In this document: positions 19,697-64,000 of the stretch, in pieces
Layout: each line of letters starts with the position of its first letter
Position numbering within the stretch: the stretch's first letter is position 1
Origin: Membranipora membranacea
Lineage: Eukaryota; Bryozoa; Gymnolaemata; Cheilostomatida; Membraniporidae
Length of the DNA stretch: 64,000 nt
Direction of reading: 5' to 3'
Assembly (NCBI GenBank): GCA_914767715.1
Contig: OU612072.1
Coordinates: forward strand, 18,540,001 to 18,604,000
Notes under the pieces: generated by a model
What the model saw: the letters and a program-made list of their open reading frames with translations, nothing else
The model's database searches: none
What the model was told of the DNA's origin: nothing
Program-made: the position numbers and the translations under genes

Positions 19697-21086
19697 TCAG
19701 CCTTTCTCACCTAATTTGAATAAGAAGATTCTCTCCAAACCCCCAACATAAAGCTTTTCTCCATCAACGAGTAGTGAGTAAGGCACAACTAGGGAGCAGT
19801 TAGATAGTCCACCTCCAACGCTCTGCCACACAGGCCACGCCCCTGAGCATATCGTCCAACCGGTACCAGTATCTAACTCTAATATTCTGAGCTGGTGATA
19901 CCAAGTGTCCGCGACCACCAGTACCTGATCGGACAGAATAGCGACTCCACTCGGATGATCAAACTCTATCTTAGACAGCTCGACTTTCCTCAGGTATGAG
20001 TATTGATATATCACTGAAGCAGACTTTGTTGTTGGTGATTTTAAAAGCTTTTCATTGTATAAAGATTTAAGAAATGGAGTTGAGGACGATCCTGCTATGA
20101 GAGTGACTGCCTTACTTTGATAGTCATATTTGGCAACACCATGTTCAAATGTAATGTAAAGGTCACCGGTTGTCTGATGTTGCGTAATACCGCGGAAATA
20201 ATGCACATAGCTGAATTTTGATAACGTTTCTGTATATTTACTGCTGATCGCAACAGTCTTGAAAGCATTGTTTCCCCAGTCATAAATTATGAATTGGCTC
20301 AAGTTTTTAGCGTCCAAAATAATTGACAAAGGCCACTCAAACTTTGCGTCATAGCCATCTTGATCTCCATTTTTCATGCAGCTTCCTGCATAGGGATTAG
20401 TTCGCTGATTTAATCTATCGACAAGCCTCACACAGTGATTTCCATGGTCAATCACTATAAGCTGTGTTGGAGACAGGCTGGCAAACCCAGACACTTCTTC
20501 AAACCTCGCTGCTCTGCCGACCCCTTCAATGTATCCCATTTCTGTAGCAGAACCAGCGATCAGCTCCGTCGTCTTGCCGTTTGTGGTTTTGAGACAACTG
20601 TTATCAGCAAATATGATATTACTTGGGTTGAAAATATCTCGTTCTATGTGAGAGACGAATGTATCTGTATCAACAAAGGTAGTTCCCTCTCCCTGTGAGG
20701 ATGAAAACACGCTGTGATGACTGACCACTTTCCTGATTTTAAATAAAAAAATACATGTACTAATTAGTGACCCTCTACCCTCTCCACTTTCAAAGAGTCC
20801 CCGTGACTGGCACCCTGATTGCATGCAGGACTGTGAATCATGCAGACTGTGTGCGTTCTGCAGCAGTGCAACAAAGAATTCTAATATTACATGTAAAGTA
20901 TGCCTACACATTTAGGATGTAAGACCCTGGTTCAAGGGAAATATTTAGTTTGAGAGTACGTCTTTAGACTGTTTGCAGCAAGTTTAATCGTGAAACAATC
21001 ATTTGGTTGGATATTATGACACACAGACGATCTAATTACTGGACTCACCTCAATGCGAACACATTTATGACAACATTAGTTAACAT
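19697..21086 (-). CDS. Secreted NHL-repeat (beta-propeller) protein
   Basis: Two coding exons are predicted: 21086-21049 (ATG at 21086, donor 'attgag|gtgagt') and 20903-19697 (acceptor 'aaatgtgtag'). They join in phase to 414 residues plus TGA. The large exon alone is open for 404 codons. The N-terminus is hydrophobic (MLTNVVINVFAL, then HVILEFFVALL), a likely signal peptide or anchor. From about residue 100 NHL-type blades recur: ELIAGSATEMGYIEGVGRAA, LIVIDHGNHCVRLVDR, YAGSCMKNGDQDGYDAKF, DHPSGVAILSDQVLVVADTW and RILELDTGTGW. NHL propellers mediate protein or ligand contacts; no enzyme residues are seen, so the partner is unknown. An alternative is a start at 20911 without the first exon, which would weaken the signal peptide. 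A 5' exon acceptor ('tttttttcag' before 21098) implies a further non-coding exon. Confidence 0.7.
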
Positions 21087-27190: not shown

Positions 27191-27341
27191 TTTGGAGTTC
27201 TCTACATTACATTGACTATTTTGGATGGTTGTCTGTACAGTAGTAATGACTTCAAAAGAACAAACGTAGCCTCGCTGTATATTTGGCCTCTGAAATTAAG
27301 TCCTCAACAGTTTATAATAATGCACAAAACCAGAGCATTAT

Positions 27342-27453
27342 GGCAGGTTATGGCAGGTTATGGCAAGTTATGGCAGGTTATGGCAGGTTATGGCAGGTTA
27401 TGGCAGGTTATGGCAGGTTATGGCAGGTTATGGCAGGTTATGGCAGGTTATGG
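27342..27453 (+). repeat. 10-bp tandem repeat, 'aggttatggc', about 11 copies
   Basis: A near-perfect decamer array with one substitution ('aagttatggc') in the third copy. It lies about 200 bases beyond the stop codon of the ankyrin-caspase gene on the opposite strand. It is open in two frames only because ten-base units cycle through all frames without a stop. Confidence 0.9.
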
Positions 27454-27659
27454 AACACAATGCTTGACATTTACAGTCAAGCTGCCTGCTATATTTTATC
27501 ATAATAGTTGCTAAAGAAACTATCTCTTATATTTTACATTATCTGGCATCGCAAAAGAGTGAAAATATATTTAGAAAAGATACCACTTGTCGCTTCAAAA
27601 CATAAAAAAAATTCTATAATGATGGGATATTTCCATTCGGACAGTAATCCATGAGAATG

Positions 27660-30600
27660 TTATGAAGTACTCAGTTTGATAAAAACAGGTTTGCTATTTC
27701 TGTCTACAGTATAGCAGAAGTTGGTAATGATCCTAAACCCTGACTTGTCTCTAACTATCCCGGCTACATCAGTGAACAGGCTCACCAGTTCTACATAAAG
27801 TGATGGCTTAAAATCAGGGTGCAAATTCTGTTCCTGAATTAGCGAATCTAAGCCATTAGATGCTTGAGAGATTATTTGGGTCTTTGGTCGTACAACTTGT
27901 AGGTCCCTATCAGTCACTGACACAGAGTTTGCTGCTGTAGATAGAGAGGACACTGGATATGCGCTGCTGCTGGCTGCTTGAGCAGAATCCTGAGCGCTGC
28001 AGGATGAGGGTGTGGCAATCAGAAACAGCTTAATTTTCTCAGCTAGATGGTGTCTCATCTCTCGGAATGCTATGTTCTTCTGTGGGGATCTGAAGATGAG
28101 AGAAACGCAGTCATGAAAAACTATGTAAATACGACAAAGGTCGCAGGGCAGTGCAGCGGCTTATTTGTTGTATAAGCTGTGTTAAGAGCTCTTTAAATGA
28201 AAACCTTTTCAAGCAACGCAGCCAACTTCTAAAAATCCTCTTTGAAGTGATTGTGAAGGATTCAGGTTATTTGTATCACTTTGGAGTTCTCAGTCTTGTT
28301 TAGAAAACTGTTATAAGGTTCATCAACAACATATGGCCCAATTTCACCTCATTTTCACTCAATGTTGAGATGTGAAGGTACTAAGAAGGTACTATTTTTA
28401 TGATAGTACATGTATATACAAAATGGTACCTTTGTAGTACCTTCCAATCTCAACTTTGAGTGAAAATGAGTTGAAACTGAGGCATATGTCGTTGATGAAC
28501 CTTTAAACAGTTTTTAAATTAGACTGAGAACTCCAGAATGATACAAAAAACCTTATTCCTTCACAATCACTTTAATAAAATGACAACGAGTGCAGCTATT
28601 ATGGATTGCAGTTTCACGGTGCATCCATCCACGTCTACTATTAGATACTGTTCAGTTTCAAAGGAGTGTATAACTTTCTGAGAAATAGCCAGCTATGAAA
28701 TACTTACTGAAAGTACCTTTGTCTTGTGATAAAAAAATTTTTGTAGCTTCTGAAATGAAGTTATCTACATACATCATTAACTATAATTCGGTTGTTGATT
28801 CAATTTATCTGACCATATAATTTACAAAAACTCAACATTTATATGAATTAATGGGGTCACCTAATGCTAGGGTTGATCGACTCACTTGTTAATCTGAAGA
28901 ACAGTATACATCACATGACAGTCAGGAGGGATAACTACGTCTGGCATGGGGTGACCTAAGTATTCCTCTCGTATCTTCTTTGGATTCAGCTTTTTCTTAG
29001 CAGGCTCAAAATCGTCTCGTATTCTGACTATTTCACCGATCTCTTTTGTTTCTGGGCTATATGGGACCATGTTGTACACGGGAGGTATCCTTCCTCGGCA
29101 AAATGACAACATCATCAGCTGTGAATACAACACATGTAACCATATAGACACTTTCTATGATACTGGATAATTCACCTAAGGCTGCTTTGTAGGGAAAATG
29201 TTTCATTGATTATTATTGTAGCCTAGCTCTTGAAGTCATGGAGCAAGTCCAATCCAGCTGGTGGATATTTCCATCATTAAATTCTTGCACAGCTACCACT
29301 ATTAAATATTAGCTAGGCCGCAGTATCTGCGCCAATTTGCTCTCTGTTTGCAGGCAGGTCGGAACACACCTGGGGCCAACCAAGCCCCAGTAGCCCCACT
29401 GCAGTGGGATTCGAGCCAACGACCTTCAAACACTTGCATGTTGAAGTCCGGCGCTCTAACCAACTGAGCCACCTCCTACTCCTACTGACTATGATATGCT
29501 ATGGTCTTTGGGCAGTCTTTACAACTGGACTACTAGAGTAAGTAGACTCTCACATGGCGGGCTCTTTAAAGGTTCCCAAGCAGGGTTCCCAAGCAGGGTT
29601 CCCAAGCAGGGTTCACCATGCGAGACAAATCAGCAACACCATGTCGTGCGCGAGAGTCTTTAACTTACCTGTTCAAACTTTCATTGCATTTGAACTAGAG
29701 GGGCCCCTTGGCAGCTGCTCAAATACACCAATGTCTAGCCGCAGCCTCAAAAACATGCCTCAGCTGTTGATGTAGGCTTGTGATGATGCGTGTTGTTTCC
29801 TCATGATTATATATACCATTCATACTTAGTTCCTATTGGCTTTAAACTAAGCATAAGTCATGAGTGTGACATTATGGCTTATCAACGCATATTAAAAACT
29901 GAGTTTTCCACTAAACTATGGTATTTTCAATATGACAGTTGATTTAATCCTCAACATACATGTCTGTATTCTCATTTCAAACTCACCAACACATTCTGGA
30001 TAATGAAATAATCAAATGATATCTGATTTTGACCAGCCATTATACCTCAAAGGTCACATGACTTATGCTTAGTTATAAGCCAATAAGAGGAACTCAGTAT
30101 GAATGGTATATGTAATCACGAGGAAACAACACGCATCATCATTAGCCATCATCAACTGAGGCATGTTTTTGCAGCGGCTGATAGACATTGGTGTATTTGT
30201 GAAGCTGCCAAGGGCCCCTATCTGTTCAAATGCAATGAAAATTTAAACAGGTATGTAAAAGACTCTCAGGCACAACATGGTGTTGCTGATTTGTCTTGTA
30301 TGGAATCCGGAGACCTTTAAGATGTGGAGAAGGATATACCTGGGGCATGTTGGGTCAAGAGATAAAAATATGTTTGAACATGAGGTCACCCAGCTTAAAA
30401 GACCTTGACAAGCCTTTGAAAAGATCAAGTCACCTTGGGGATTCCTTGAAGTAACTCTGCACAAAAGCACTCCACAAGTTGTTGAACAGTTATTGGTTGA
30501 TCATCCACACCAGATATGTCACCATCACCCTCTGAATCTCCGTGAGCCATCACAACCAGAGCCACGATCTGTGAGTCTCCAGCACTAGACACAAACTTCT

Positions 30601-33600
30601 CTATACCTTCTATTATAGATGTAGATGAGAAGTTGAACTCAGAGGTCACCTACAATCAAAGAACAAGTTGAATTTTAAAAAAGGATCAAGAGAATTGTAT
30701 TGACATGGGGTGCTGTTGAACACTTACCGATGGTTGCGTAACTAAAAAAAACTCAATATTTTATTTGATTTTTCCGGTTCATGATTCATCTGTTTGGAAT
30801 CTGATACGCTTCTACGCACCACAACCCCTCGCCAACAAGTGGTTTCCCGAACTAGCAGAGTTGGTCAATGATTTAATGGGGTAAACTACAGACTATGATC
30901 TATGGAAATGAGATAGAAGCGGGGATATATTATGGATATACATGAAATATTGATCAGTTGATATAATTCTATGATGTAGCTGCAAATACTCACTGCAAGG
31001 CCAAGCTGGTTTTGTAATATATGCAATGCGTCCTCGTATTGAATTTTCCAATCGGGTCGACCTTTCATATTACATAATATCAGAGCTTTCCCTGCACTCC
31101 TCCTATTGATGATGTGACTGCCGGGGCTTGGTGAATCTTGGCGCTGAATATCATCCAGTGTAGTATTAGGTAGGTGTTTCCCAAGTGTAGAATTGATGGA
31201 GACACTGAGTACCCCTTCGCTTTTACATGTGTCAGTGATGTAGGTGCCAAGTTGATGTGTTGGAAGAAGTTCCTGCATCCACCTAAAACGCAAAACTATA
31301 GCTTAAATCAGTATCAATTGAAGCCAGCAGCAGTAGACCTACACATCAAATACTCTATGCATCTTTGTAAAGCTGCAATTAGCAAGCACTTTCAATCATG
31401 ACAAGCTTTTGGTGTGTTTGGACCATAACAAGTAGTGAATTATTCTTTCTGTACTCAAGTGACTGTTTTGTTTGCGGATCTTGCTGCAAATCAATGATTA
31501 TGAAGTCTGGTCCTGGTGGACTGATGTTCTTCCTTTTGCCAGCTCTTCTTCTGATTACAACCTGAAAACATAAACCATGTGTTTGAAGTTTGAATTAAAA
31601 AAGACGGCTCTCATTGGGCCAGGAGTGCATGATAATCTCAGTAGTGAGATTGAGGCGGCTCACTGTACAGATAAGCAAACAACGGTTTGAGGCATTCCAA
31701 GATTTATAGAGTGGTGGTTTCTCATCAGATAGAACAGCTGCCTGCACTCACTTTAAGACCTGTATGTTAGGAGCACAACTGGCAGTTAGATATGAGGATA
31801 ACGAAATCAATGATTCAACTGAAATGGCGTACCTTGGGTTGACCCTGGTTCTCGGGCATATCCATTTTCCAGAGTGCATACATGATGTGTCCATCGTCGA
31901 GTTGTCCATCTTCGATAAGTAAATAACCCAGCGTCTGATTCTGTGTGTTAGAAAAGATTTACAACATCGAAAAACTTAAGATTGAGACTGAGAAGACCCA
32001 ACATAATGTGATTGTATCTCTGAAACATTGTGATACGAATCAGTGGCAGTATTGACTTGGTGTCAGAAACCATTTTTGAAATAATTCCATCATGTAGCAA
32101 GAAAAGGTATCAAGCCGTAAAGAAAAGTGCAATCAAACCTCAGATTTATAAGAACTACCAACACAGGAACATCTCTAGTTGGAGCTTTATTTATTTGGTC
32201 AATTACTGATAATAATACACGCACATACCTTTTCATGTTTAATGTGCCCAAAGGAGGCAGATGCTTGGTTAAATGCGGTCGATGCTTGATCAAGCAGGGA
32301 ATATTTCAAGGTGCTATGCATGGCCACAGCCAGCATCTGAGGTTTTCGAATGAAATAAACTTCTCCATCACCAATACACCTGGCCAATAAGTAGTAGTGA
32401 TAGCTATAGACAGTCGGATCAATGTCTTTTAAGAGGCATAAGCCCAAAGTCATAGCTTCAGCTTGTCCTGAGCAATTGGCGAGCTTGTGTACGACGGACA
32501 CTGGATTGACTCCGTCCACGTTTCTTTGCGTGAGCATATACCTTCTTCTCTCGAGCGGAATCTCCATCAGCAAGGCGGCAAACATGGCTACCTCACCTAA
32601 GATAGCTGCATAATGCAGTGGGCTATTGCCAAACATATCTCTGACAAGTAACTTCTCCACTTGCACTTCGTTAAGACAATCCCTGATCAAAGTCATATAG
32701 TTTTCAGGATCTATCTCACCAGCAGCTAAATGGAAAGCGTTTTGTTGCATGTTGTTTCGGTGTTCAAGCTGTAGTTGCATGTCAGAACCAGCATGTTCAA
32801 AGTATTGAAACATAAATTTAACCACGCTAACTGACCCAGAGCTGATAGCGTACATCAAGGGTGTATTTCCGTTACGATCCGGCATGTTTATCATTACTTC
32901 GCTGACAGTTCTTGATGGTTGGTCTGTGGGAAGGATAGTTTTTGGGGTAAAAGCTGATGTTTTGAGATCGAAAGGCATATCTTGTCCGAGTGAAAGCAAA
33001 TATGTCGCTACACCATCATCAAATCGTGTTTTACAAGCCGTGTGCAACGCTGTTCCCCCATTTTCATCTAGGGCCAAGATGAATAATTCATGCTGTCCAA
33101 TATGGATTGATTCCAACAGAAATTTAGCATGGTCTATTGTACAAGCTATGTGCAGTGCTGTCCCTCGTCTATTACCAGGCAACTTTATTAAGCGTTCTCT
33201 ATCAGCAACATTGGCAAGCATAAACTTCATTAACAGTACTCCGTTCCCAGTATTATCACTAGCTTTGTGGAGCGCAGTCTCACCCCAGTCATTAAGAGTA
33301 AAAATAAACTCTTCTTGTCTTGTTTTTCCTACTGCATCAACAAGGATTTGAGCTGTTTCCATGTTAGAAGCACGGTGAAGGGCCGTACCGCTAGTGCATA
33401 GAGAAGTCATATGTTCCCGTTGATGGCATACTGTGAATAATAAGGCTTCAATGTCAATGTCTAATGAAAGGAGGTGACTAACTATCCTGCAATCCCCTGA
33501 ACTTGCAGCGCTGTGTAAAAGTGTTTCCCCTATGTTATTTGTGGCAAAAACCATATCGCTATGTGACCAAAGAAGTGCATCGTTTTCATTGCATGGGTTG

Positions 33601-36600
33601 TCGGAAATTATGACTTCACCCGTTTTACTGTCTGCTTTCAACGGCAGCAAATAACTTACTACTGAAAAGTTCCTCTCTCTGCATGCGATGTGTAAAGCGG
33701 TGTCGCCATCTTCATCGCCAATTAAAAGCAATGACTTTCTTAGCTTCGGCGGAGTAGCCAGAATGAGCAAAGCCATCACATCTCTGTCTTTGGCCTCATG
33801 TAAAGCTGTACCGTTTTCATTTGTGTAGAAAAGAAGCTGTGAATCAAATTGATCATCAGATACAATGCATTGAATGACATCTTTCTTCCCCTCTTTGCTG
33901 GCGCTGTGAAGTGCAGTCCCACCATGGGCATCAAGGGTACTCAGAAACCCACATTTGTTTGGTTCTGTAACAGTTGATAATAATAGTGTTGCCATTTCAG
34001 CATGCGCAGCCACATGAAGAGCGGTACCAACACCCATGCGACTCTCCTCGCGACTACATTTTAGGAGCATATTGTCACAAACAAGACCTAGCGAGACGAA
34101 ATACTTCATGATGTTCATCATTCCACCTTGAGAGGCAAGATGGAGGACAGTACTACCATACGAGTTAGCCATTTCAAAAAGTCTTTGCCCTAAAGGTGGC
34201 ATTCGCTTGGGATGAGCTCCACCATGTTCTTTAAGTTGTGGTAAAGTTGCATTCAGCAAAAACTCCACAATATCTAGCCTCTGTGCTCTAACTGCAGCGT
34301 GCAGGGCTGTATTACCAAATTTATCACATGCAAAGAGAAGTTCTTCCCGGTTCACACGGCTGACATTATCCAGAAGAAGTTGTGCTAGCTCTCGACCTCG
34401 CGCATCATGTAACGCAGTGCCATAATCTCCGCATGACAGGATGAGTCTGTCCGTATCGACGGATAAATCCAGCAAAAGTGCAGCGAGCTCAATGTTGTCT
34501 TTTTGGCAGGCATAATGAAGAACAGAGTGACAATAGCCGTTGACTGGAGTGTGAGTGAAGAGTCTATCCCATATTTGATGGGCAACAATCTTGGCTCCAT
34601 GAGTCTCCAGAAAGTTGAATAAAGTTTCTTGACTTTTCAGAAAGTAGTCTAGTATCACATCTTTCTATGGAATGAAAGAGGTACGTTAGGAAAATCATGA
34701 TTTTGACCTCGAAACAGCAGATAATGGCTGTGTTATGTTGGGTAAGTTTGCCCGTATATTATGTTGCTCTTATTCTACTTGTAATTTGCAAGCAAAATTG
34801 ATTAATAACTGAATCTACTTAGTCGGATTGCTCGCTACCCTGAGGCCTGAATACAAAAAAATTGTGAAATATTGAGATTTTCAGAACACTTGAAGGAAAG
34901 GAATAAGAGAAATAATACGGATTATTGTGTAACATGGTTGTGACGGGACATTATGACATTATAGGGGGGGGGGGGGCGCAGAGAAGAAAAGACCATGCAA
35001 TTTTTTATATGCGACCATTTGGTCTGGTAGGCAGGGAAACTAAGATTGAGACAACCAGCAAAGTTATTCACAGGCCTCTCATTATTGGATCGAAATTCAT
35101 TATACATTTAAAACAATCAATCACCCATCCATCCATCCATCATCTCATAGGAGAACTTATTTGAACAGGACATCAAATTCTTAATATTTCTTTCCAAAGT
35201 CTTATATCAGTGTCCTAGACAATGCCTGGGTAATCAATCTTGGTGATTCAAAAGGTTTGTTTTCCCATACAAAGAATTGACAGACAACCCAAGTAAAGAC
35301 AAAAGCAAAATTTGCACAAGAATTTGTGTTTAAAGGTATAACCATAGACCAGTGGCGTATATTAGCACTCACGCCCGCGGATTTTCGTGAGTGGCTGAAT
35401 AGCTCAGTGTGTAAAGCGTCCGCCTAGTAATCATTGTTAATAAATTTGTTGTGGGTTCGAATCCCATCAAGGTCAGTTTTTTTTTCAAATGGGTGCTTTA
35501 TAACTGGAGCAATTTTACCGTAATCTTCTACTGCTATTGAGTTGTTTTCTAAAAGTACCCAACAGCTCAAATACCTCTCTGTTTGCACTATTTTGCTACC
35601 GATATGCAAAAATTTCCGTGGTGGGAGGGCGATTAAGCGCCCCTCCCACACCCTCCCCGCCACGCCTACGGATCGGGCTGCGCCCGATTATTATGCTCAT
35701 CTCTGAAAAGTCAGTGAGTGAAATTTTTTAGAATATACGCCCCTGCCATAGACCTAATATACTCCCTAGACAGGACAATGCTTATGCTTCACTGATCAGA
35801 ATATGTCCCACTTAAAAAGCACGACATGACGTAATTAGTTTGTGCAGTGAGTCATAGTTTACTATATATCCATCAATGAAATAATGTGAAAAATCAAGGG
35901 ACGCTGGGCATGATATCAGCCCCTGTCCAGCCCCTTATTATTCAAACACAAAGAAAATTGGTGAGTGTATGAAAAAGACCTTTCCGCACGATATGGTGTT
36001 AATAATTTTTCCCCAGATCCAGAACTTTTTTTATGATAAGATACAATCATTAGCCAATAAACTTTGAAATAAATACAGCCATTTACCCTCAGCACTTCCA
36101 TCACTACTAAAAACATGTAAAGAATACCTATAACACAATATCACAAATATTTTGTTGGATGAGCCAGATCTAATCACCACCACCATCATCTTTTTTTCTT
36201 CAAAATTATTCCTAGCTGTGACTGAACACAACCAGTCTGCTCAAATCGGATTGCTAATTTTATTGTCGCGTCACCAGGAAGAAAATATATTTGCTGTTAA
36301 ATGAGTATGCAAACTACAGATAGCCGTTGTTCCTGAGTATGTATGATGAAGCTAGAGTATGTTACAATAACTTGAAATTATTATATGGTTGTCAGAATCT
36401 AATGGCCTTCACAGTGGCCAAACTTAATTTTGCCGATGCGATGCCGGTAAGGTTCTTGAGTTTATCAATGTGATGACGGCGTCAACAGTGAATGTCAATT
36501 GCTTCCTTGACCCACACACAGAAACAGCAGTGTGAAAAAAAGTAGTCAGTACAACAGAACGCGTCATTATCTGAGAAAATGGAACTACATGTAACGATGA

Positions 36601-38706
36601 AACTACAGAGGAAAAAGGACGGAAGCAGTGACCCTAATAAATTCCAAAACTGGAAGACAAATGCCGGCCAAATGATCACCAGCATTCTTGCTTGACTCGG
36701 CCGAGAGTTGCGTGCTCATATGCATCACAGCTTCTCACAAGCACAAACCTCCGCAGCCGGCAATAAATTTTTGTTGGTGTCAGCTGAGGTTTAGTCTTAA
36801 TAATGGCTATTAGTATACAACCCAGTCTAGGCCACAAAATAACGTATCTGAACCCTTTATTTAGACAGCCAGAGAAGTTTTTGAATTAATGAGCAGCAAC
36901 AATCCCAATGACTAAAAAATTCATCTGTAAGGAGACATTGTCAATTAAACAGAAATCACTGTTTAGTGTGCTGCAGTATCTTGAGAAGTATAGAGATGTC
37001 TGCATGGCTCCGCCTTGATAGAAGCTGAAATAGTTGTTATGAGAATTATTAACTATTGAATAAAAATAATGTAAATGTAACAATGAGAATAATAATAATG
37101 ATAATTACAGGAATTGTAATTTACAAATACTACTCGAATTGACATTCACTGTTGACGCCGATATCACCTTGATAAACTCAAAAACTCAAAAGGCCTTACC
37201 GTCATTGGCAAAATTAAGTTTTGCCACGGTATTTCATTTTCCAGTAGTTGGAGATTATTATTAGAGTCACTGCTTCCATCCTTTTTCCTCTGTAGGTTTT
37301 CATCATTACATGTAGTTCCATTTTCTCAGATGATGATGTGTTATGGTTTGCTTTATTATAACAATCATCGTATCAACAGGCGATAAGATTGGAGTGGTAC
37401 ATGAAAATGAACATTTTAAATTCTATTGTGAGCTGACATGTAGTATGAAAAAAGCTTTGTAAACGTTTTCTTGTCCTGCACTTTGGTGGGCGATAGATGG
37501 TATGCAGGTGAGAGGATATCTTTGCACAGTTAAAAACAACACGACTAAAAAGAGGATGGTCTTCATTATTAGCAGTTTTGTTAAAAAAACAGTTTTAGAC
37601 ATCTCAGTAATAACTTCGTTTTTTTACACTGCTGTTTCTGTGTATAGGTCGGGAAAGCAATTGACATTAACTGTTGACGCCAATATCACATCGATAAACT
37701 CAAAGAACCTTACCGGCATTGGCAAAATTAAGTTTGGCCACGGTAAAGGCCTTTAGATTCAGACTACAGTACCAAAGTATAATAATTTTAAGTTATTGTA
37801 ACATACCCTTGCTTCATCATACATACTCAGGAACAACAGCTATCTGTAGTTTGCATGCTCATTTAACAGCAAATATCTATTCTTCCTGGTGAGGCGACAA
37901 TAAAATTAGCAATCCGATTTGAGCAGACTGGTTGTGTTCAGTCACAACTAGGAATAATTTTAAAGAAAAAAATGATGATGGTCGTGGTGCTGGTGCTTAA
38001 ACCTGGCTCATCCAAAAAAAATATTTATGATCTTGTGTTACAGGTATTCTTTACATTTTTATAGAAGTGATGGAAGTGCTGAGGGTAAATGGCTGTATTT
38101 ATTTCAATATTTATTGGCTGATGACTGTCTCTTATTATAAAAAAGGTCAGGTTCTGGAGACAATTAATGAATACTATCTCGTGCGGAAAGGTCTTTTACA
38201 AACACTCACCAATTTTCTTTGTGTTTGAATAATAAGGGGCTGGACAGGGGCTGATATCATGCCCAGCGTCCTTTGATTGTTCACATTATTTCATTGATGG
38301 ATATATAGTAAACTTTGACTCACTGCACAAACAAATTACGTCATGTCCCGCTATTTAAGTGGGACAGTATTGAATGCTATTAGCCTGTCTAGGTTGTATA
38401 TTAAGTCTATGGGTATAACATAATTGTTTGTACTTTCCGTAGAGTTTAAAGGTATATTATTGATCTGGTGCTGCCCAGTCCAATAAGAAAAAGGATATTA
38501 CATAGGCCTACATTTAGTACAGATTCTTTCACATCTTGAATGCCCACCTTTGTCTTGTCAAGATCTTTCCATTTTGTGCTAGCCTGAGTTAAAGTCGAAG
38601 ACTTTTCCGTCGAGATGGCTCCGTATTCAGCAAGTATTTCAATCAACTCCTCACCCGGTGATGCAATTTTGGTGTAGTCCTTGTCGGAGCTCACTTTTGG
38701 ACCCAT
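27660..38706 (-). CDS. Ankyrin-repeat / caspase-domain fusion protein (1,337 aa, eight exons)
   Basis: Predicted minus-strand exons: 38706-38512, 34664-32229, 31940-31833, 31561-31455, 31282-30994, 30649-30434, 29118-28886, 28089-27660. All junctions are GT-AG and phases match, giving 1,338 codons with TAA at 27660-27662. Residues 1-65 are an unassigned N-terminus; about 70-860 hold some 16 ankyrin repeats; about 950-1337 are a caspase fold. The caspase part has the first strand (GKALILCNM), catalytic His1081 in VMAHGD, Cys1124 in SFCRGR (usual QACRG) and small-subunit-like segments in exons 7-8. The 43-residue His-Cys spacing matches caspases. Ankyrin repeats bind proteins; a likely role is a ligand-gated or scaffolded cysteine protease in cell death or immunity, which is inference. 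The link of exon 1 to exon 2 across a 3.8-kb repeat-filled intron is the weakest join. Confidence 0.75.
28240..28575. mobile_element. Foldback element in intron 7 of the ankyrin-caspase gene
   Basis: Two arms of about 160 bases are mirror copies: 'gaagtgattgtgaagga', 'ggagttctcagtct', 'aggttcatcaac', 'ctcattttcactcaa' and 'ggaaggtact' or their complements. A ~20-base loop near 28400 separates them. Non-coding and MITE-like. Confidence 0.75.
29340..29482 (-). mobile_element. tRNA-derived SINE-like copy in intron 6 of the ankyrin-caspase gene
   Basis: The minus strand reads 'ggaggtggctcagttggtta' (A box) and 'ttggctcgaatcccac' (B box) with tRNA-like spacing and a long anticodon arm. It continues into a non-tRNA tail. 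The acceptor stem is not complementary, so it is a SINE head or tRNA relic rather than a working tRNA gene. Confidence 0.45.
29566..30320. mobile_element. Foldback element in intron 6 of the ankyrin-caspase gene
   Basis: Arms 29566-29872 and 30053-30320 are inverted copies (for example 'agacaaatcagcaacaccat' at the left against its complement at the right, and 'gcataagtcatg' against 'catgacttatgc') around a ~180-base spacer. The left arm has a triplicated 'aagcagggttccc' (29579-29615) that the right arm lacks. The reading frames across it are mirror artefacts. Confidence 0.75.
32229..34664 (-). other. Exon 2 of the ankyrin-caspase gene: ~16 ankyrin repeats
   Basis: A single 2,436-base exon (812 codons) starts right after an acceptor ('cattccatag') and ends at donor 'gaaaag|gtatgt'. 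The in-frame stop just upstream is the acceptor itself, so a preceding exon is required. Repeats follow GxTALHxA...LL. Long repeats such as GNTALHAAVRAQRLDIVEFL alternate with compact ones such as GTALHDARGRELAQLLL, GTALHVAAHAEMATLLL, GTALHEAKDRDVMALLI and GTALHRASNMETAQILV, which lack part of the inter-helix segment. The last repeats (GNTPLMYAISSG, GNSPLHYAAILGE) are regular. Confidence 0.85.
34964..34976 (+). repeat. Poly-G tract (13 G)
   Basis: An uninterrupted G run in intron 1 of the ankyrin-caspase gene. C runs of similar length occur at 47645-47658, 54413-54424 and 63982-63995. They are homopolymers that can form G-quadruplexes and are prone to length error. Confidence 0.8.
35350..35745. 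mobile_element. Non-autonomous hAT-like element with 8-bp target-site duplication
   Basis: The element begins 'cagtggcgtatatt' and ends 'aatatacgcccctg', an imperfect terminal inverted repeat. It is flanked by the 8-bp direct repeat 'ccatagac' at 35342-35349 and 35746-35753. An 8-bp duplication and CAGTGGCG-type ends are typical of the hAT superfamily. The 396-base body has no transposase. It holds a tRNA-like stretch at 35389-35470 ('tagctcagtgtgtaaagcg', 'gtgggttcgaatcccatc') and a GC-rich palindromic part near 35620-35690. It lies in intron 1 of the ankyrin-caspase gene and splits the terminus of the foldback that follows. Confidence 0.8.
35746..38415. mobile_element. 2.7-kb foldback element in intron 1 of the ankyrin-caspase gene
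   Basis: Left arm 35746 to about 36650 is mirrored by 38415 to about 37655. Good blocks are the 'gtgcagtgagtca' region, 'aggggctggacaggggctga', 'tgcatgctcatttaacagca' and 'caattgacatt..ctgttgacgcc'. The innermost part of the left arm (about 36560-36645) is mirrored at 37255-37345. A ~100-base segment near the inner right arm is duplicated (37138-37250 and 37660-37750). The terminus reads 'ccatagac.taatata'. Non-coding and non-autonomous; its frames are short mirror artefacts. Confidence 0.7.
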
Positions 38707-39480: not shown

Positions 39481-40200
39481 ACAAAATAAAGTACAGTTGT
39501 AAAATACCCTTAACCAGTGGTTCCTACATATTGTAGCAGCGATTGGATTGTGTATACCCACAAATGAGTGTAGCAAAGGTGGAGAACTGAGGCTACCATA
39601 CACGTTCCCCAACCATCGATCCAACCATCCAACCGACCATCCAACATATAATCAGACAGGCATGCAAATTTTACCTGCCATTGTACTCCTTTGTTCACCA
39701 AACAAAAGGCCTTTTGTTATACAAGTCTCATAGGTGTCTTGGGACATGCTTGAAGACAGACTCCCAATCATAGGCCCTCAGGGCCTAACCAACGGGGTCT
39801 TTTAGAACTATACTTTATTTTGTAATGCCTATCTACAAATAAATATTTTTCTTTTTCTTTTTAAGACATGTCCACTACAAAATAAAGTACAGTTGTAAAA
39901 TACCCTTTACAAGTGGTTCCTGCATATTGTAGCATAGGGTGGATTGTGTATACCCACAAATGAGTGTAGCAAAAGTGGAGAACTGAGGCTAGCATACACG
40001 TTCCCCAGCCATTGATCACACACACCCAATATGCATTCAGACAAGCAAACTTTGCCTGCCATTGTACTCCTTTGTTCACCAAACAAAAGGCCTTTTGTTA
40101 AACAACTCTCATAGGTGTCTTGGGACATGTCTCCCAGACATCGGCCCCCAGGGGCCAGGGCCTACATACTACAGCATAAGTAGACTTTATTTTGTAATGT
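39481..40200 (+). repeat. Two direct copies of a ~396-bp unit
   Basis: 'acaaaataaagtacagttgt' begins copies at 39481 and 39877. Both continue through 'cccacaaatgagtgtagcaa', 'tggagaactgaggct', 'acacgttcccca', 'ccattgtactcctttgttca' and 'ggtgtcttgggacatg', and end with 'actttattttgtaatg'. The unit sits directly 5' of a reverse transcriptase relic, so it may be a retrotransposon 5' or monomer-type repeat. It is non-coding. Confidence 0.75.
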
Positions 40201-40219
40201 CCCGTTCAGCACCTGCATC

Positions 40220-41171
40220 ACACGACGGTCTCAGAACATCCTAGCGTTTCATTGGGCTACAAACTTAAAATATGTCTTAGCATGGGACACGGAACTGGAC
40301 TTGTTCTGTATAAACTGGATTGAGGAATGGCTCCATCGACAAAGCTCTGTGGTCTCAGTGAATGGACTCCTCTCAAAGGAGTTCCATGTGAAGTCTGGGG
40401 TTCCACAGGGCTCCGTTTTTGGGCCTCTTCTCTTTATACTGTACGTAAATGATAACTCAGAGGATATTAAAAACAGTGACTGTCGATTATATGCAGACGA
40501 TACCATCCTAAGCTCTGCCTCTGATCCAAATCTAATTCAGGATGACATAAATAAATTATATATCTGGGCAGGGAAATGGGGAATGAAGTTCAACAACCTT
40601 TAATGCTGTCATCTCCAATTTGGATCAGAAATCCCCACCCATACTTTTTTCTGGGATATGAACCGATTCCAGCTTCCGTCTCTGTTAAATATCTAGGTGT
40701 GCATATTGATTACAACCTAAAATGGAACACACATATATCTAAGGTAGCTGCCAAAGCAAACAGGTCACTTGGAATGGTAAAAAGACACTTGAAACAGGCC
40801 CAAAGAAAACAAAGCTCATTGCTTTCAAGACCATGGTGAAACCCATTTTAGAATATGCATGCCTAGTGTGGTTGCCACACACAGCAGGTCTTACAAATAC
40901 CATTGAGAAGGTTCAAAACAATGCCCTCCGATGGATTTACAGGTTAAATAAAACTGATAGCATAACTGAATGCCGTAACTTAAATAACATTGAATCTCTA
41001 GCTGATAGGGGAGCGGAGTTAGACACCCTCTTCCTACGCAAAGTGGAGGCAGGGCTATTTGAAATAAAATTGAATAAATGCATAAGGTTCTCATCCAAAA
41101 CAAGCAACACTAGTAGGCAACACCATAAGCTGGGTCCATCGTACCAATGCATGGAAATTTTCGTACTTTAA
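40220..41171 (+). pseudogene. Broken non-LTR retrotransposon reverse transcriptase
   Basis: Three frames in order. 40301-40603 has WIEEWLHRQSSVVSVNG, GVPQGSVFGPLLFILYVND (motif B) and CRLYADDTIL (intact YADD). 40576-40839 has ASVSVKYLGVHIDYNLKWN and the following helix. 40833-41171 has MVKPILEYACLVWLPHTA and IEKVQNNALRWIYRL. At least two frameshifts separate them, and the 5' half of the element is missing. It resembles CR1/L2/RTE-like RT tails. It is recent enough that motifs are intact but it is not functional as it stands. Confidence 0.8.
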
Positions 41172-57100: not shown

Positions 57101-57831
57101 CTTTCCTTACGTTACATGAAGTTTCTTTTTCTCTTCTTATTTGCTCAAGAATATCTCACAAGTTTAGGAACTGAGTTGTCAAGAATTTTAATATTAGCGC
57201 TATCGAATATATGAGTTAGTCCTAAGAGTGTTTGTATTTGGTTTCAGGCATGAGTTAGGCGGTGCCTCCTACATTACAAAGTTACCTTAAGGTAAACACA
57301 GTGTTAAGGGATGCGGGCGGACGGAGCCCACCCCCTCACAGGATCACAAAACTAAGGATGGGGTAACTATACCACTCGGTGTGGGACACGACTCCACTCC
57401 TAGTATGGGCAGCACATCACTTCTCTATAACGAGTATCCTTTTATCAACAAAAACATGACCTTTGAACCTTTTTGTTTCATGATTTTAACATACTACCGT
57501 ATGGGATGGGAAGTTGCACGGACCTGAAAATGGTGATAGCAAGCTATCACTATCACATTGCTGAGAATTATCACTCACTTGGTCTTTCAACTAATCAAAA
57601 TCGCTCCCATCGAGCGAGCAGTCAGATTGCAATGTTGGCTGTTTATAATTGAAAGACCCACCCCCCTGGTTGCTTTAGCTTTGGGACGTTTTTGGAGTTG
57701 TCGTCCATGAGACTCTCAAATCCCACAAAGTTACTTTGCCTTGACCTTCATCTCTCAGATACATTGTGTATGATGTGGCTCAGCTGAACATCAAATACAT
57801 GGTTAAGTGTAAATTTAACTACAAGTACTAG
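43085..57831 (+). CDS. PARP1: Poly(ADP-ribose) polymerase 1, 22 exons, with one internal in-frame stop
   Basis: PARP1 senses DNA breaks in the nucleus and makes poly(ADP-ribose) from NAD+. Exons: 43085-43201, 43546-43690, 44371-44519, 45052-45191, 45987-46061, 46763-46853, 47808-48007, 48604-48830, 50177-50353, 50684-50851, 51398-51504, 52151-52254, 52579-52675, 53042-53137, 53490-53621, 54008-54091, 54636-54758, 55089-55316, 55823-55975, 56411-56538, 57248-57433, 57759-57831. They total 3,000 bases in consistent phase (999 residues; human 1,014). Order: zinc fingers 1, 2 and 3, BRCT, WGR, helical regulatory domain, ART catalytic domain with His847 and Tyr881. TAA at 57288-57290 (codon 928) interrupts the ART domain before Glu976, although downstream coding is conserved to TAG at 57829. 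Sequence error, allele or true truncation are all possible. The family call is secure; whether full-length protein is made is not. Confidence 0.93.
44195..44275 (+). other. tRNA-like relic in PARP1 intron 2
   Basis: 'gctcaatcgttcagagcgct' resembles a D-arm/A-box and is followed by a 'ccttccagtcatgtgg'-type anticodon arm and a damaged B box ('gggttatgtttggcaccc'). It is a degenerate tRNA or SINE head. Confidence 0.25.
45289..45921 (+). repeat. Tandem duplication (327-bp period) in PARP1 intron 4
   Basis: Two direct copies share 'gaatcagccctgccaaacac', 'tgcacccttcctgttg', 'tcaccgatagtaggtctctc', 'cacccaattttgtggaggac' and 'ctcctagttgagttctgtta'. The matched string 'gttctg' lies at 45575 and 45902. 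Non-coding. Confidence 0.8.
45987..48830 (+). other. PARP1: PARP1 exons 5-8: basic linker with DVVD motif, zinc finger 3
   Basis: Exon 5 closes the zinc finger 2 region ([18 protein letters not shown]). Exon 6 (46763-46853) encodes a basic, bipartite nuclear-signal-like stretch, [19 protein letters not shown]. The human linker has its caspase site (DEVD then Gly) and nuclear signal at the same place. Exons 7-8 form zinc finger 3 with Cys295, Cys298, Cys312 and Cys322 (TPCPEC, YHCTGD, WTKC). Confidence 0.88.
46458..46490. repeat. Short hairpin in PARP1 intron 5
   Basis: 'tgtcggctagc' mirrors 'gctagccgaca' with an 11-base loop. Perfect arms; function unknown. Confidence 0.55.
49496..49930 (-). 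repeat. Dispersed repeat in PARP1 intron 8
   Basis: On the minus strand it carries 'tagtacaacctcctcatggc' and 'tgtgtgttgatgagcat', shared with 22047-22110, and a 'ctggtttggctt' block shared with 42660-42740. The 145-codon minus-strand frame (49496-49933) is open but has no domain and is not conserved in the other copies. It looks like a mobile repeat rather than a gene. Confidence 0.45.
50177..50851 (+). other. PARP1: PARP1 exons 9-10: BRCT domain
   Basis: The end of exon 8 (SGIKFFVQG) with exon 9 ([20 protein letters not shown]) and exon 10 ([14 protein letters not shown]) gives a BRCT fold with its usual phosphate-loop-like start and C-terminal helix. The automodification region follows. 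The tail [17 protein letters not shown] is a short, basic linker to the WGR domain. Confidence 0.85.
51398..53137 (+). other. PARP1: PARP1 exons 11-14: WGR domain
   Basis: [50 protein letters not shown] and [12 protein letters not shown] follow the family pattern. The Trp-Gly-Arg triplet lies at the start of exon 13 (52579-52675). The domain links DNA-break sensing to catalytic activation. Confidence 0.9.
54540..54578. repeat. Palindrome made of foldback termini in PARP1 intron 16
   Basis: 'catagacttaatatac' and its complement 'gtatattaagtctatg' are separated by 7 bases. The arm equals the terminus of the 2.7-kb foldback (35746-38415), which reads 'catagac.taatata'. It therefore appears to be a minimal or internally deleted copy of that family. 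Confidence 0.6.
57288..57290 (+). other. In-frame TAA inside PARP1 exon 21
   Basis: The stop follows 'aagttacct' and precedes 'ggtaaacacagtgttaag' (GKHSVK, conserved in the family). No alternative donor or acceptor removes it while keeping the flanking conserved codons. Downstream frame, exon junction and TAG terminator are intact. A single A-to-T change (AAA or AAG to TAA or TAG-like) would explain it. Confidence 0.85.
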
Positions 57832-57833
57832 GT

Positions 57834-60655
57834 GGAGACAATCACTTCATACGGCTAGTAGTAATTCAAAGGGAGTACCATCGATGGAGTTCTTGCTGTC
57901 GAATGAGAATGATAGGGAACATTTAGTATAGTTAACTGGTAACAAACGGAGGACAGCGCTGCATAGGGCTTGTACGGCAGCACATGCCAAAGTGCTAATT
58001 GATTCCGTCCATATCGATAAGCATGAAACACTTTTATTGGCCTTGGATGAAGATGGTAGGTCGACCTTGCACGTGGCTTGTATGAAAAGGTATGGCGATG
58101 TTGCTGAGGACTGGATATTGCATTTTTTTAACGTGGGGCTCGTAAAGGACGGTATACTGATGTAGCTGAATATCTGCTCTCACTTGGAAAAAATATGCCT
58201 TTTGATCCAAACACATCAGCTGCTACTCTGAAAACTATTCTGCCCCTTGGCCACCCGCCAACAACTGTCGGTGAAGCGATGATTATCACACCTGATGATA
58301 ATGGAAATACTCCCCTTATGCTAGCCATTGATTCTAAACTGATGGGCATTGTTAGTTGTATGTTTCAATTCCTTGAGGATAAAGGTTCCGATGTGCCACT
58401 GCTGCTAGAACACCGAAACATCCTTCAGCATAACGCTCGCCATTTAGCTGCCATTAATATGCTTCGTCTTGGCGATACTAGGTTTTTCATGGATTGCCTA
58501 AATGAAGTTCAAAATTCTGGTCAAAGATGTGTGTGGAAATAACCCACTGCATTATGCAGCCCCAATGGGCAATGTTGCCGTGTTCGCCACTTTGCTTATG
58601 AAAATTCCGCTTGAGCGCAGAAGGGCTTTGCTCATGCAAACAAATATCGATGGACTCAATCCACTAGCCATCATTCACGGACCGTCTGACTGCTCTACTC
58701 GAGCTAACAGCGTGACTTTTTACCGAGGTGCCACTAATGGCACCATCCCATATATCGCAATCAATCGATACCCGGTGAGGCATTTGCATGGTATGATATG
58801 CCATTATTCTTGCGATCGAGATCTGAAGATGCAGACTGTGACTATGCACAGTACCTTGATGTATTCTCTGTTTGACCAAGCATCGACCGCATTACACCAA
58901 GCATCTGCCTCTCGTGGGCACATCAAACATGAAAAGGTGTGTGAAAGTATTACTATTAATCTTGGATCACTTTGCTATAACATGCAATGTACACACAAGT
59001 CGCTAAAAAGTTACAATGTTACCAATACCTAAATGGTTCCAATGAAAGTTATATTGCTGGCTAAGATCCTTGGATATGAACAATTCTTTCAAATAAAAAG
59101 TTGTATTTTACTTATTTGGTGGATGAAAATTAAGAAAGATTATGTCAATGATGCTTTATAGTTTATTTGTTTTCCGATGAATGTGTAACCCCCTGTTTTA
59201 ATCACACAGTTGGAACTGTTTATTTTGTATTTTGTAAATTTAAATCTTAATCAACAGTATTTTAAATCTTTTCAATCACAGAAACAGACCCTGGGTTATT
59301 TGCTTATCGAAGATGGACAGCTCGATGACTATAGAAAATGGATAAGCCGGAGAACCACGGTCAACCCAAGGTACACCATTTTGGTAGAGTCATTCTCTTT
59401 GCTAACCTCATATCTTACTGCTAGTTCCACTCATAATATAAAGTCCCTTGAATCAATGCTGACAGATGTTCTATCTGAAGAGAAACCACCACTCTATGAT
59501 CTTTGAATGCCGCAGACCGTTGTTTGCTCATCTGTTCAGTGAGCCGCCACAATCTCACTACTGAGATTATCATGCACTCTTGGTCCGATGGGAACCATCT
59601 ATTTTAATTCAAACTTCAAACACATGGTTTTTGTTTGCAGGTGGTAATCAGAAGATGAACTGACAAAAAGAAGAATATAAGTCCACCAGGACCAGACTTC
59701 ATAATCATTGATGTGCAGCAAGATCCGGAAACCAAACAGTCACTCGAGTATGGAAAGAATAATTCACTACTTGTTATGGTCAAAGCACACTCAAACTAGA
59801 TTTGAGAACTGCTCAGCACTCTGGGGTTAAAGCTGCTGATCAAACCGCTGAGGTTGAGCTGAGTCTGTTGTCAGCATAATGATAACAATGGTGGGCTTGT
59901 GCAAACCATAGATAAGATTTGATGGATCAGTGGTAAATTACAGTATGGCAAGGTCCATCAGTATGATACATTGCATGAGTAATTGAATTTAACTAAAGAT
60001 CCGGTAGCTTTCACATTCCGCTTTGATGTCCCATTGACAACCTTCTAAAACTCAGACAAGCTGCTTTATCTGATTTTGGTCAGTGGTAAGCTGCAGGGCT
60101 GTCTGACTTTTTGGTCAATCAAATAGAAGAAATTTATTTCTAAAACCATGCACAGAGACACGGTGTGATAGCTTTGTGTCCATGATTCAAAGCGCTTGCT
60201 AACCGCAGCATTGCAATGGCCACTTTTCATTAAATGATACAATTTTTGTCAGTGGCAGGTAGTCATTACATACATCCATAGAGTATTTGATGTGTAGGTC
60301 TGCTGCGAATAAGCGAATACTGATTAAAGCTATGGTTTTGCGTTGTAGATGGATGCGAGACATTCTTCCAACACATCAGCTTGACACCTGTAAAAGCGAA
60401 GAGATACTCAGTGTCTCCATCAACTCTACACTTGGGAAACACCTACCCAATACTACACTGGATGATCTTCAGCGCCGAAATTCACCAAGCCCAGGCAGTC
60501 ACATCATCAATAGGAGGAGTACAGGGAAAGCTCTGATATTATGTAATATTAAAGGTCAACCTGGTTGGAAATCTCAATACGAGGACGCGTTGCACATATT
60601 ACAAAACCAGCTTGGCTTTGCGTTGAGGATTCACAGCTACATAATGTAATAATGA
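57834..60655 (+). pseudogene. Decayed segmental copy of the ankyrin-caspase gene
   Basis: Homology to exon 2 of the minus-strand gene begins within a few bases of the PARP1 stop codon. It runs through the last ankyrin repeats (HETLLLALDEDGRSTLHVAC, GNTPLMLAIDSK, GNNPLHYAAPMGN), exon 3 (near 59283, QTLGYLLIEDGQLDD), exon 4 (near 59641, PPGPDFIII) and exon 5 (near 60349, PTHQLDTCKSEE and STGKALILCNIKG). Stops (near 57930 and 58163) and a frameshift near 58510 break the frame. Introns and splice sites are also homologous, so it arose by DNA duplication, not by retrotransposition. The copy ends before the exons for the catalytic His and Cys. It shows decay typical of a pseudogene, though exon 5 alone is still open. 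Confidence 0.8.
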
Positions 60656-60879
60656 TCAATGTTTTATGATGTAAATCTGTATATCTTCGCCACTTGGCGA
60701 TGGGTAGTGGTGCATTGATGCATATCAGATTCCAATCAGATGATCAATGGACTGGGTGAAATTTATGATACTATCAACAGCAACTGACAAGGCTAGTTAG
60801 CTCATAGCATCTTAGTGAAATTCACAAACACCGTATCAAGCCACCAGCATTGACCAAATCTCTTAGCTCTTAACTCCGA

Positions 60880-63818: not shown

Positions 63819-64000
63819 AGTACAATGATAATTTCACAATAGCACCTAAATTGATATTTCATAACATTTAGAAACAAACGCAGTAGTAGATCCTGAAAAT
63901 CTGAACTGAAAATGACTTGCTGTGACCCTCAATTCACCTCTAATCCTCAATGGTGTATAAGCTTTCCATTATAAGAGAATTCCCCCCCCCCCCCCTCCAG

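Follow-up and report, generated by a model that had tools for sequence, protein, structure and literature searches.

The stretch of DNA analyzed here, referred to as the window (64,000 nucleotides), raises the question of whether a long array of ankyrin repeats and a caspase-like domain, both encoded on the minus strand between positions 27660 and 38706, belong to one protein or to two adjacent genes. Eight exons can be joined in phase across this region to yield 1,325 codons plus a stop codon. Re-splicing of the region reproduced the coordinates, the strand, and the exon order given in a preliminary description of the locus. The length reported there was 1,338 codons, and the gap most likely reflects the choice of a different donor in exon 4. 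The exons are as follows.

Exon 1, 38548..38706, minus strand: 53 codons; placed by splice site and phase and by an upstream stop; no known domain.
Exon 2, 32229..34664, minus strand: 812 codons; ankyrin solenoid (~16-17 repeats) followed by a helical tail at the C-terminal end, as judged by Pfam, repeat starts, and a structural model.
Exon 3, 31833..31940, minus strand: 36 codons; links the ankyrin tail and the caspase part.
Exon 4, 31455..31561, minus strand: 107 nt; weak donor (GA|GTACAG, 3/9 of the consensus).
Exon 5, 30994..31282, minus strand: linker and beginning of the caspase large subunit; the PF00656 match starts at residue 1001.
Exon 6, 30434..30649, minus strand: His loop, VMAHGD, with His 1069 at 30542-30544.
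Exon 7, 28886..29118, minus strand: Cys loop, SFCRGR, with Cys 1112 at 29098-29100, and a putative inter-subunit linker.
Exon 8, 27660..28089, minus strand: putative small subunit containing an inserted low-complexity segment, a conserved stretch of the last ~50 residues, and the stop codon.

All seven introns of the model are bounded by GT and AG, and the entry phases from exon 1 to exon 8 are 0, 0, 0, 0, 2, 0, 0, and 2. Against a nine-base consensus the donors of exons 1 to 7 score 7, 8, 7, 3, 6, 8, and 8, respectively, the lowest being that of exon 4. The start ATG is positioned at 38706 and is preceded, two codons upstream, by an in-frame stop. Exon 1 is the least-supported end of the model, and no relative of it was found. 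A codon-usage score trained on exon 2 was compared with that of intron windows, using 2,000 draws per exon. The predicted frame scored highest in six of the seven non-training exons (seven of eight when exon 2 is counted), the exception being exon 4. The margin over the next frame was small in exon 3 and only 0.001 in exon 7. The exon score was reached by 1% of the intron windows for exon 1, 0.55% for exon 3, 28% for exon 4, 6% for exon 5, 1.75% for exon 6, 5.5% for exon 7, and 6.3% for exon 8. Exon 4 thus fails this test.

The region is also populated by repeats. Intron 1 consists largely of a foldback element (35804-38366) with inverted arms of 228, 195, and 133 nt that are 89-95% complementary and lie 1.4-2.1 kb apart. 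Inverted repeats with arms of 65-157 nt are found in intron 7 (28242-28575) and in intron 6 (29616-30303). A minus-strand segment at approximately 29475-29300 appears by eye to be tRNA-derived and SINE-like, but it was matched neither by ARAGORN nor by Rfam, and scans of the entire window with these two tools returned nothing. Roughly a dozen copies of the 10-bp tandem unit TTATGGCAGG occupy 27318-27483, ~180 bp downstream of the gene's stop codon. Farther away, a reverse-transcriptase fragment (RVT_1, E 2.1e-14) at 40184-40600 has the look of a non-LTR-type retroelement remnant. A 404-codon open reading frame at 19700-20911 on the minus strand carries an NHL repeat (PF01436, E 2.9e-7) and is perhaps part of a gene for a beta-propeller protein.

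Ankyrin repeats form a very common protein-binding solenoid, and exon 2 encodes an ankyrin-repeat protein, namely an array of ~33-residue helix-turn-helix repeats. In the joined protein the Ank_2 profile of Pfam matched 11 stretches with an E value of 5.9e-53, a match that passes the Pfam cut-off. A loose motif scan revealed 17 distinct repeat starts, or 16 if the weakest and doubtful last one at residue 771 is set aside, in keeping with the earlier count of about 16. A structure prediction, one of the checks suggested in the preliminary description, was obtained for exon 2 with AlphaFold2 from a four-sequence alignment. The model is a helical solenoid, mostly good, with a mean pLDDT of 71.9; values below 50 occur at the poorly predicted ends (residues 1-45 of exon 2 and most of 714-812) and in several short inner stretches. 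When the model was compared with known structures using Foldseek, ankyrins matched best, the top entries being ankyrin-B (4rlv, E 5.5e-17) and ankyrin-1 (8cs9, E 6.7e-17). By query, the TM-scores reach only 0.20 and 0.38, low values that are expected for a solenoid that is long and flexible.

The C-terminal part of the joined protein matched the Peptidase_C14 profile (PF00656) from residue 1001 to 1242 with an E value of 2.3e-10 and 41.0 bits against a cut-off of 21.4. Both of the profiles that the preliminary description proposed for the joined translation, Peptidase_C14 and Ank_2, therefore lie above their Pfam cut-offs, and a lack of Peptidase_C14 similarity, named there as contrary to its reading, is excluded. 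The signal comes from the large subunit, which by itself gives 41.8 bits. The large-subunit pattern noted previously, with VMAHGD and SFCRGR loops 43 residues apart, was recovered, His 1069 and Cys 1112 lying at this spacing. A search of the PDB sequences with the 470-residue C-terminal half returned a reconstructed ancestral caspase-6 (E 0.0037) and CED-3 (E 0.023), and the His of AHGD and Cys 1112 align with both. As regards a possible metacaspase or paracaspase affinity, the protease matches among PDB sequences were all to animal or reconstructed ancestral caspases and were all weak; two phosphoglycerate kinases (E 0.03 and 0.055) look like chance matches.

The region following the Cys loop is less clear. 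Taken alone, it matched no Pfam family up to an E value of 10, and a phmmer search with the last 170 residues likewise found no PDB entry up to that value. NCBIfam gave no match for the caspase part. The order of elements in exon 8 resembles a p10 subunit by eye only. The "small-subunit-like elements" mentioned in the preliminary description are thus not recognized by any profile searched, but the very end of the protein is conserved. Two open reading frames from other loci, P0001 and P0002, were the only matches to the 470-residue C-terminal half among 6,450 candidates, and in both the match is limited to the end of exon 8. Their final 50-58 residues are 72-78% identical to it and are preceded by a poorly conserved linker of ~200 residues that is much longer than that in exon 8. 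No death-fold domain was detected by Pfam up to an E value of 1 in the joined protein or up to 10 in pieces of the linker. By this measure the joined protein is not a caspase with a CARD, DED, or DD prodomain.

The pentapeptide QACxG is absent, the sequence being LSFCRG where most caspases read QACRG. For this reason the domain is assigned here as caspase-like rather than as a canonical caspase (C14A). With SFCRGR as the Cys motif in place of QACxG, proteolytic activity and specificity for aspartate are putative. Accepting a single gene, it is a serious possibility, although not the favored view, that the caspase part is a pseudo-protease akin to the regulator cFLIP, with the ankyrin array recruiting partners and the domain only modulating true caspases. 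Such a role would be in accord with the altered Cys motif, with an S1-pocket arginine of the small subunit that is not recognizable by eye, and with a small subunit that lacks a profile match and is interrupted by a low-complexity insertion. Arguing for an active enzyme is the retention of both His and Cys at the caspase spacing, together with a dN/dS ratio below 1 in the comparison given below. Dronc is an active initiator caspase of Drosophila. In a weak match (E 0.66) its sequence (PDB 3j9k) places FPFCRG, rather than QACRG, opposite LSFCRG, and this too speaks against a pseudo-protease.

The ankyrin and caspase-coding parts meet at intron 2, across which exon 2 is in phase with exon 3, 288 bp away. 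Downstream, the alignment of the large subunit to the PF00656 profile spans the junctions of exons 5 and 6 and of exons 6 and 7, and thus homology supports these two joins. Evidence bearing on intron 2 itself is provided by a second copy of the locus, referred to as copy B, the gene at 27660-38706 being copy A.

Copy B, 57806..60755, plus strand: partial, decayed inverted duplicate comprising the 3' part of exon 2 and exons 3, 4, and 5.

Copy B retains the exon order 2-3-4-5, and six of the seven splice dinucleotides examined between the exon 2 and exon 5 donors are preserved, including the GT of the exon 4 donor (GA|GTATGG). Its decay is evident in a 19-nt deletion in exon 3, a change of the exon 5 donor from GT to TT, and frame breaks in exon 2. 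Exons 6 to 8 were not found in copy B up to the end of the window at 64000, and the copy thus bears only on exons 2 to 5 and is silent on exons 1 and 6 to 8.

In the joining frame the two copies of exon 3 differ at 0, 2, and 8 first, second, and third codon positions, respectively (10 differences over 89 sites); the probability of at least eight of ten differences falling at one position in three is 0.003. The first in-frame ATG of exon 3 is codon 20, and all five of the differences that precede it are third-position changes, four of them synonymous by reading of the codons. An in-frame stop in intron 2, seven codons upstream of exon 3, closes its frame. The third-position bias before the ATG and the upstream stop together indicate that exon 3 is translated from its first codon and is spliced from an upstream coding exon.

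These observations weigh on the alternative that two genes lie side by side, an ankyrin gene ending after exon 2 and a caspase gene formed by exons 3 to 8 with an upstream exon and a promoter of its own, both placed either within exon 2 or within intron 2 (288 bp). In its favor, reading through the exon 2 donor encounters an in-frame stop after nine open codons (32201-32199, minus strand) and an AATAAA at 32195. The segment 32190-32201 is consequently a candidate intronic polyadenylation site, from which an isoform or a separate gene with ankyrin repeats only could result. Copies A and B have also diverged unequally upstream and downstream of intron 2, and the nine related open reading frames found elsewhere each cover one part only, although most of them look like single-exon frames. 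Set against this arrangement are the coding constraint on exon 3 before its first ATG and the closure of its frame upstream, which demand an upstream coding exon; the good exon 2 donor (8/9), retained in copy B and implied in the relative P0003, with the donor-like KHEK|VC as the end of exon 2 in copy A, copy B, and P0003; and the duplicate itself, which holds both sides together. Two separate genes are therefore unlikely, and from the sequence we consider it probable that the ankyrin and caspase parts form one gene. The model is supported by the profile matches, the splice sites, the codon positions of exon 3, and the preserved exon order of the partial copy B.

The two halves of the gene have diverged to different extents. 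For the portion of exon 2 present in copy B, the copies are 66% identical with a dS of 0.95 and a dN/dS of 0.38 (346 codons, taken from three blocks whose overlap could reach ~15 codons). By comparison, identity is 89-91% in exons 3, 4, and 5 and 83-84% in introns 3 and 4; exons 4 and 5 combined (125 codons, with exon 3 excluded from the sum) have a dS of 0.21 and a dN/dS of 0.34. Along intron 2, identity is 43-45% in the first two windows and rises to at least 76% across its end and exon 3. The step is not a clean one, however, in that the last exon 2 window (32320-32201) is 81% identical. The halves differ in dS but hardly in dN/dS (0.38 versus 0.34), and both look constrained, the ratios being averages over unlike branches with copy B decayed. 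Positive selection as the source of the larger divergence of the ankyrin exon is unsupported by a dN/dS of 0.38 at a dS of 0.95. The contrast between dS values of 0.95 and 0.21 indicates that exon 2 and exons 4 and 5 have not always traveled together, and it points either to an ankyrin exon that has been exchanged or to a caspase half that has undergone gene conversion.

The decayed state of copy B and the abundance of foldback repeats in the introns might also be taken to mean that the locus is a pseudogene or an artifact of the gene model, in which a duplicated ankyrin exon came by chance to lie beside what is left of a caspase gene. This is very improbable given the 1,325 open codons in eight exons with canonical, in-phase introns, the third-position bias in exon 3, and dN/dS values of 0.34-0.38.

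Relatives at other loci were sought by a search that requires shared five-residue words in a database that includes some eukaryotic transcripts, for example P0008. None of the 6,970 candidates (729-2,319 amino acids) was a full-length relative of residues 840-1325 at an E value of 0.01. With exon 2 as the query, at least seven relatives were found at 1e-20 among 7,987 candidates scored. Among the matches listed, the closest is P0003, an 850-residue open reading frame from another source that shares 54% identity with residues 63-865 and continues past the KHEK sequence into what appears to be the same donor, as in a read-through; the other six are 25-28% identical. P0003 and the more distant P0004 and P0006 contain ankyrin families and no Peptidase_C14 match at an E value of 0.01. 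It is a tentative and rather doubtful suggestion that the gene belongs to a receptor-protease family of a marine animal in which the caspase-like module stays uniform from copy to copy and the ankyrin exon ahead of it diversifies or is swapped. The missing relative with both parts weighs a little against a widespread family.

If the single-gene model is correct, the protein would be a hybrid sensor-protease in which an N-terminal solenoid of ~16-17 ankyrin repeats, encoded by one 2.4-kb exon, is joined by a linker of ~135 residues to a C-terminal caspase-like domain (clan CD, C14). Most likely, the ankyrin array would bind a partner or an invader molecule in the cytosol, the bound molecules would cluster, and the clustered caspase domains would dimerize and cut their own inter-subunit linkers. 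The protease could then act without a separate CARD or DED adaptor. This scheme is proposed because initiator caspases work in such a manner. It is proposed as well because the LRRs-caspase and TNFR-caspase hybrid genes of amphioxus have been suggested to link recognition to apoptosis directly, as a "shortcut" (PMC2575513). We infer that the gene may be transcribed, that its product may have proteolytic activity and a ligand, and that it may serve in innate immunity or cell death.

These amphioxus hybrids are the nearest parallel, having a recognition domain fused to a caspase without a death-fold adaptor; they differ in carrying LRR or TNFR domains and QACXG, rather than ankyrin repeats and SFCRGR, and the TNFR-caspase is backed by cDNA whereas the ankyrin-caspase is a gene model (PMC2575513). 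For amphioxus, PMC3196919 records at least 45 caspase genes, some of novel domain make-up, and a caspase with both DED and DD. Two DSRM-caspases are described for oyster (PMC7836458). These Cg3C-like caspases similarly couple a caspase to a putative sensor prodomain outside the death-fold class, but they have two dsRNA-binding DSRM domains and no repeat solenoid. The statement in the preliminary description that animal caspases carry CARD, DED, or no prodomain was thus too narrow (PMC2575513, PMC3196919, PMC7836458). Ankyrin repeats or caspases are also paired with signaling domains in the TRADD-N and death-fold expansions of marine invertebrates; there, according to PMC8195603, the two are alternative C-termini following death-fold and TRADD-N domains, neither of which was detected here. 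The likeness to Dronc (3j9k) lies in an active site other than QACxG, but Dronc has a CARD as its prodomain (PMC5313150) and the ankyrin-caspase has none that was detected. No described ankyrin-caspase protein was found in the open-access literature on ankyrin-caspases and caspase repertoires using queries that were in part narrow. Within their accessible main texts, PMC2575513, PMC3196919, and PMC10967218 contain neither "ankyrin" nor "ANK", and PMC7836458, PMC2246300, and PMC7586219 do not contain "ankyrin". The pairing of ankyrin repeats with a caspase did not appear in that literature, but it belongs with the recognition-caspase hybrids already published for amphioxus and oyster.

Because the ankyrin and caspase parts have diverged unequally between the two copies, exchange of the sensor exon can be tested directly. 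Should the family reading hold, the organism would possess many one-protein sensors in which ligand binding leads to proteolysis directly, without adaptor proteins. If the gene is transcribed as modeled, ankyrin repeats would join the short list of sensors fused to a caspase, and the locus would be a further case of invertebrates coupling recognition to cell death with no CARD or DED adaptor between them.
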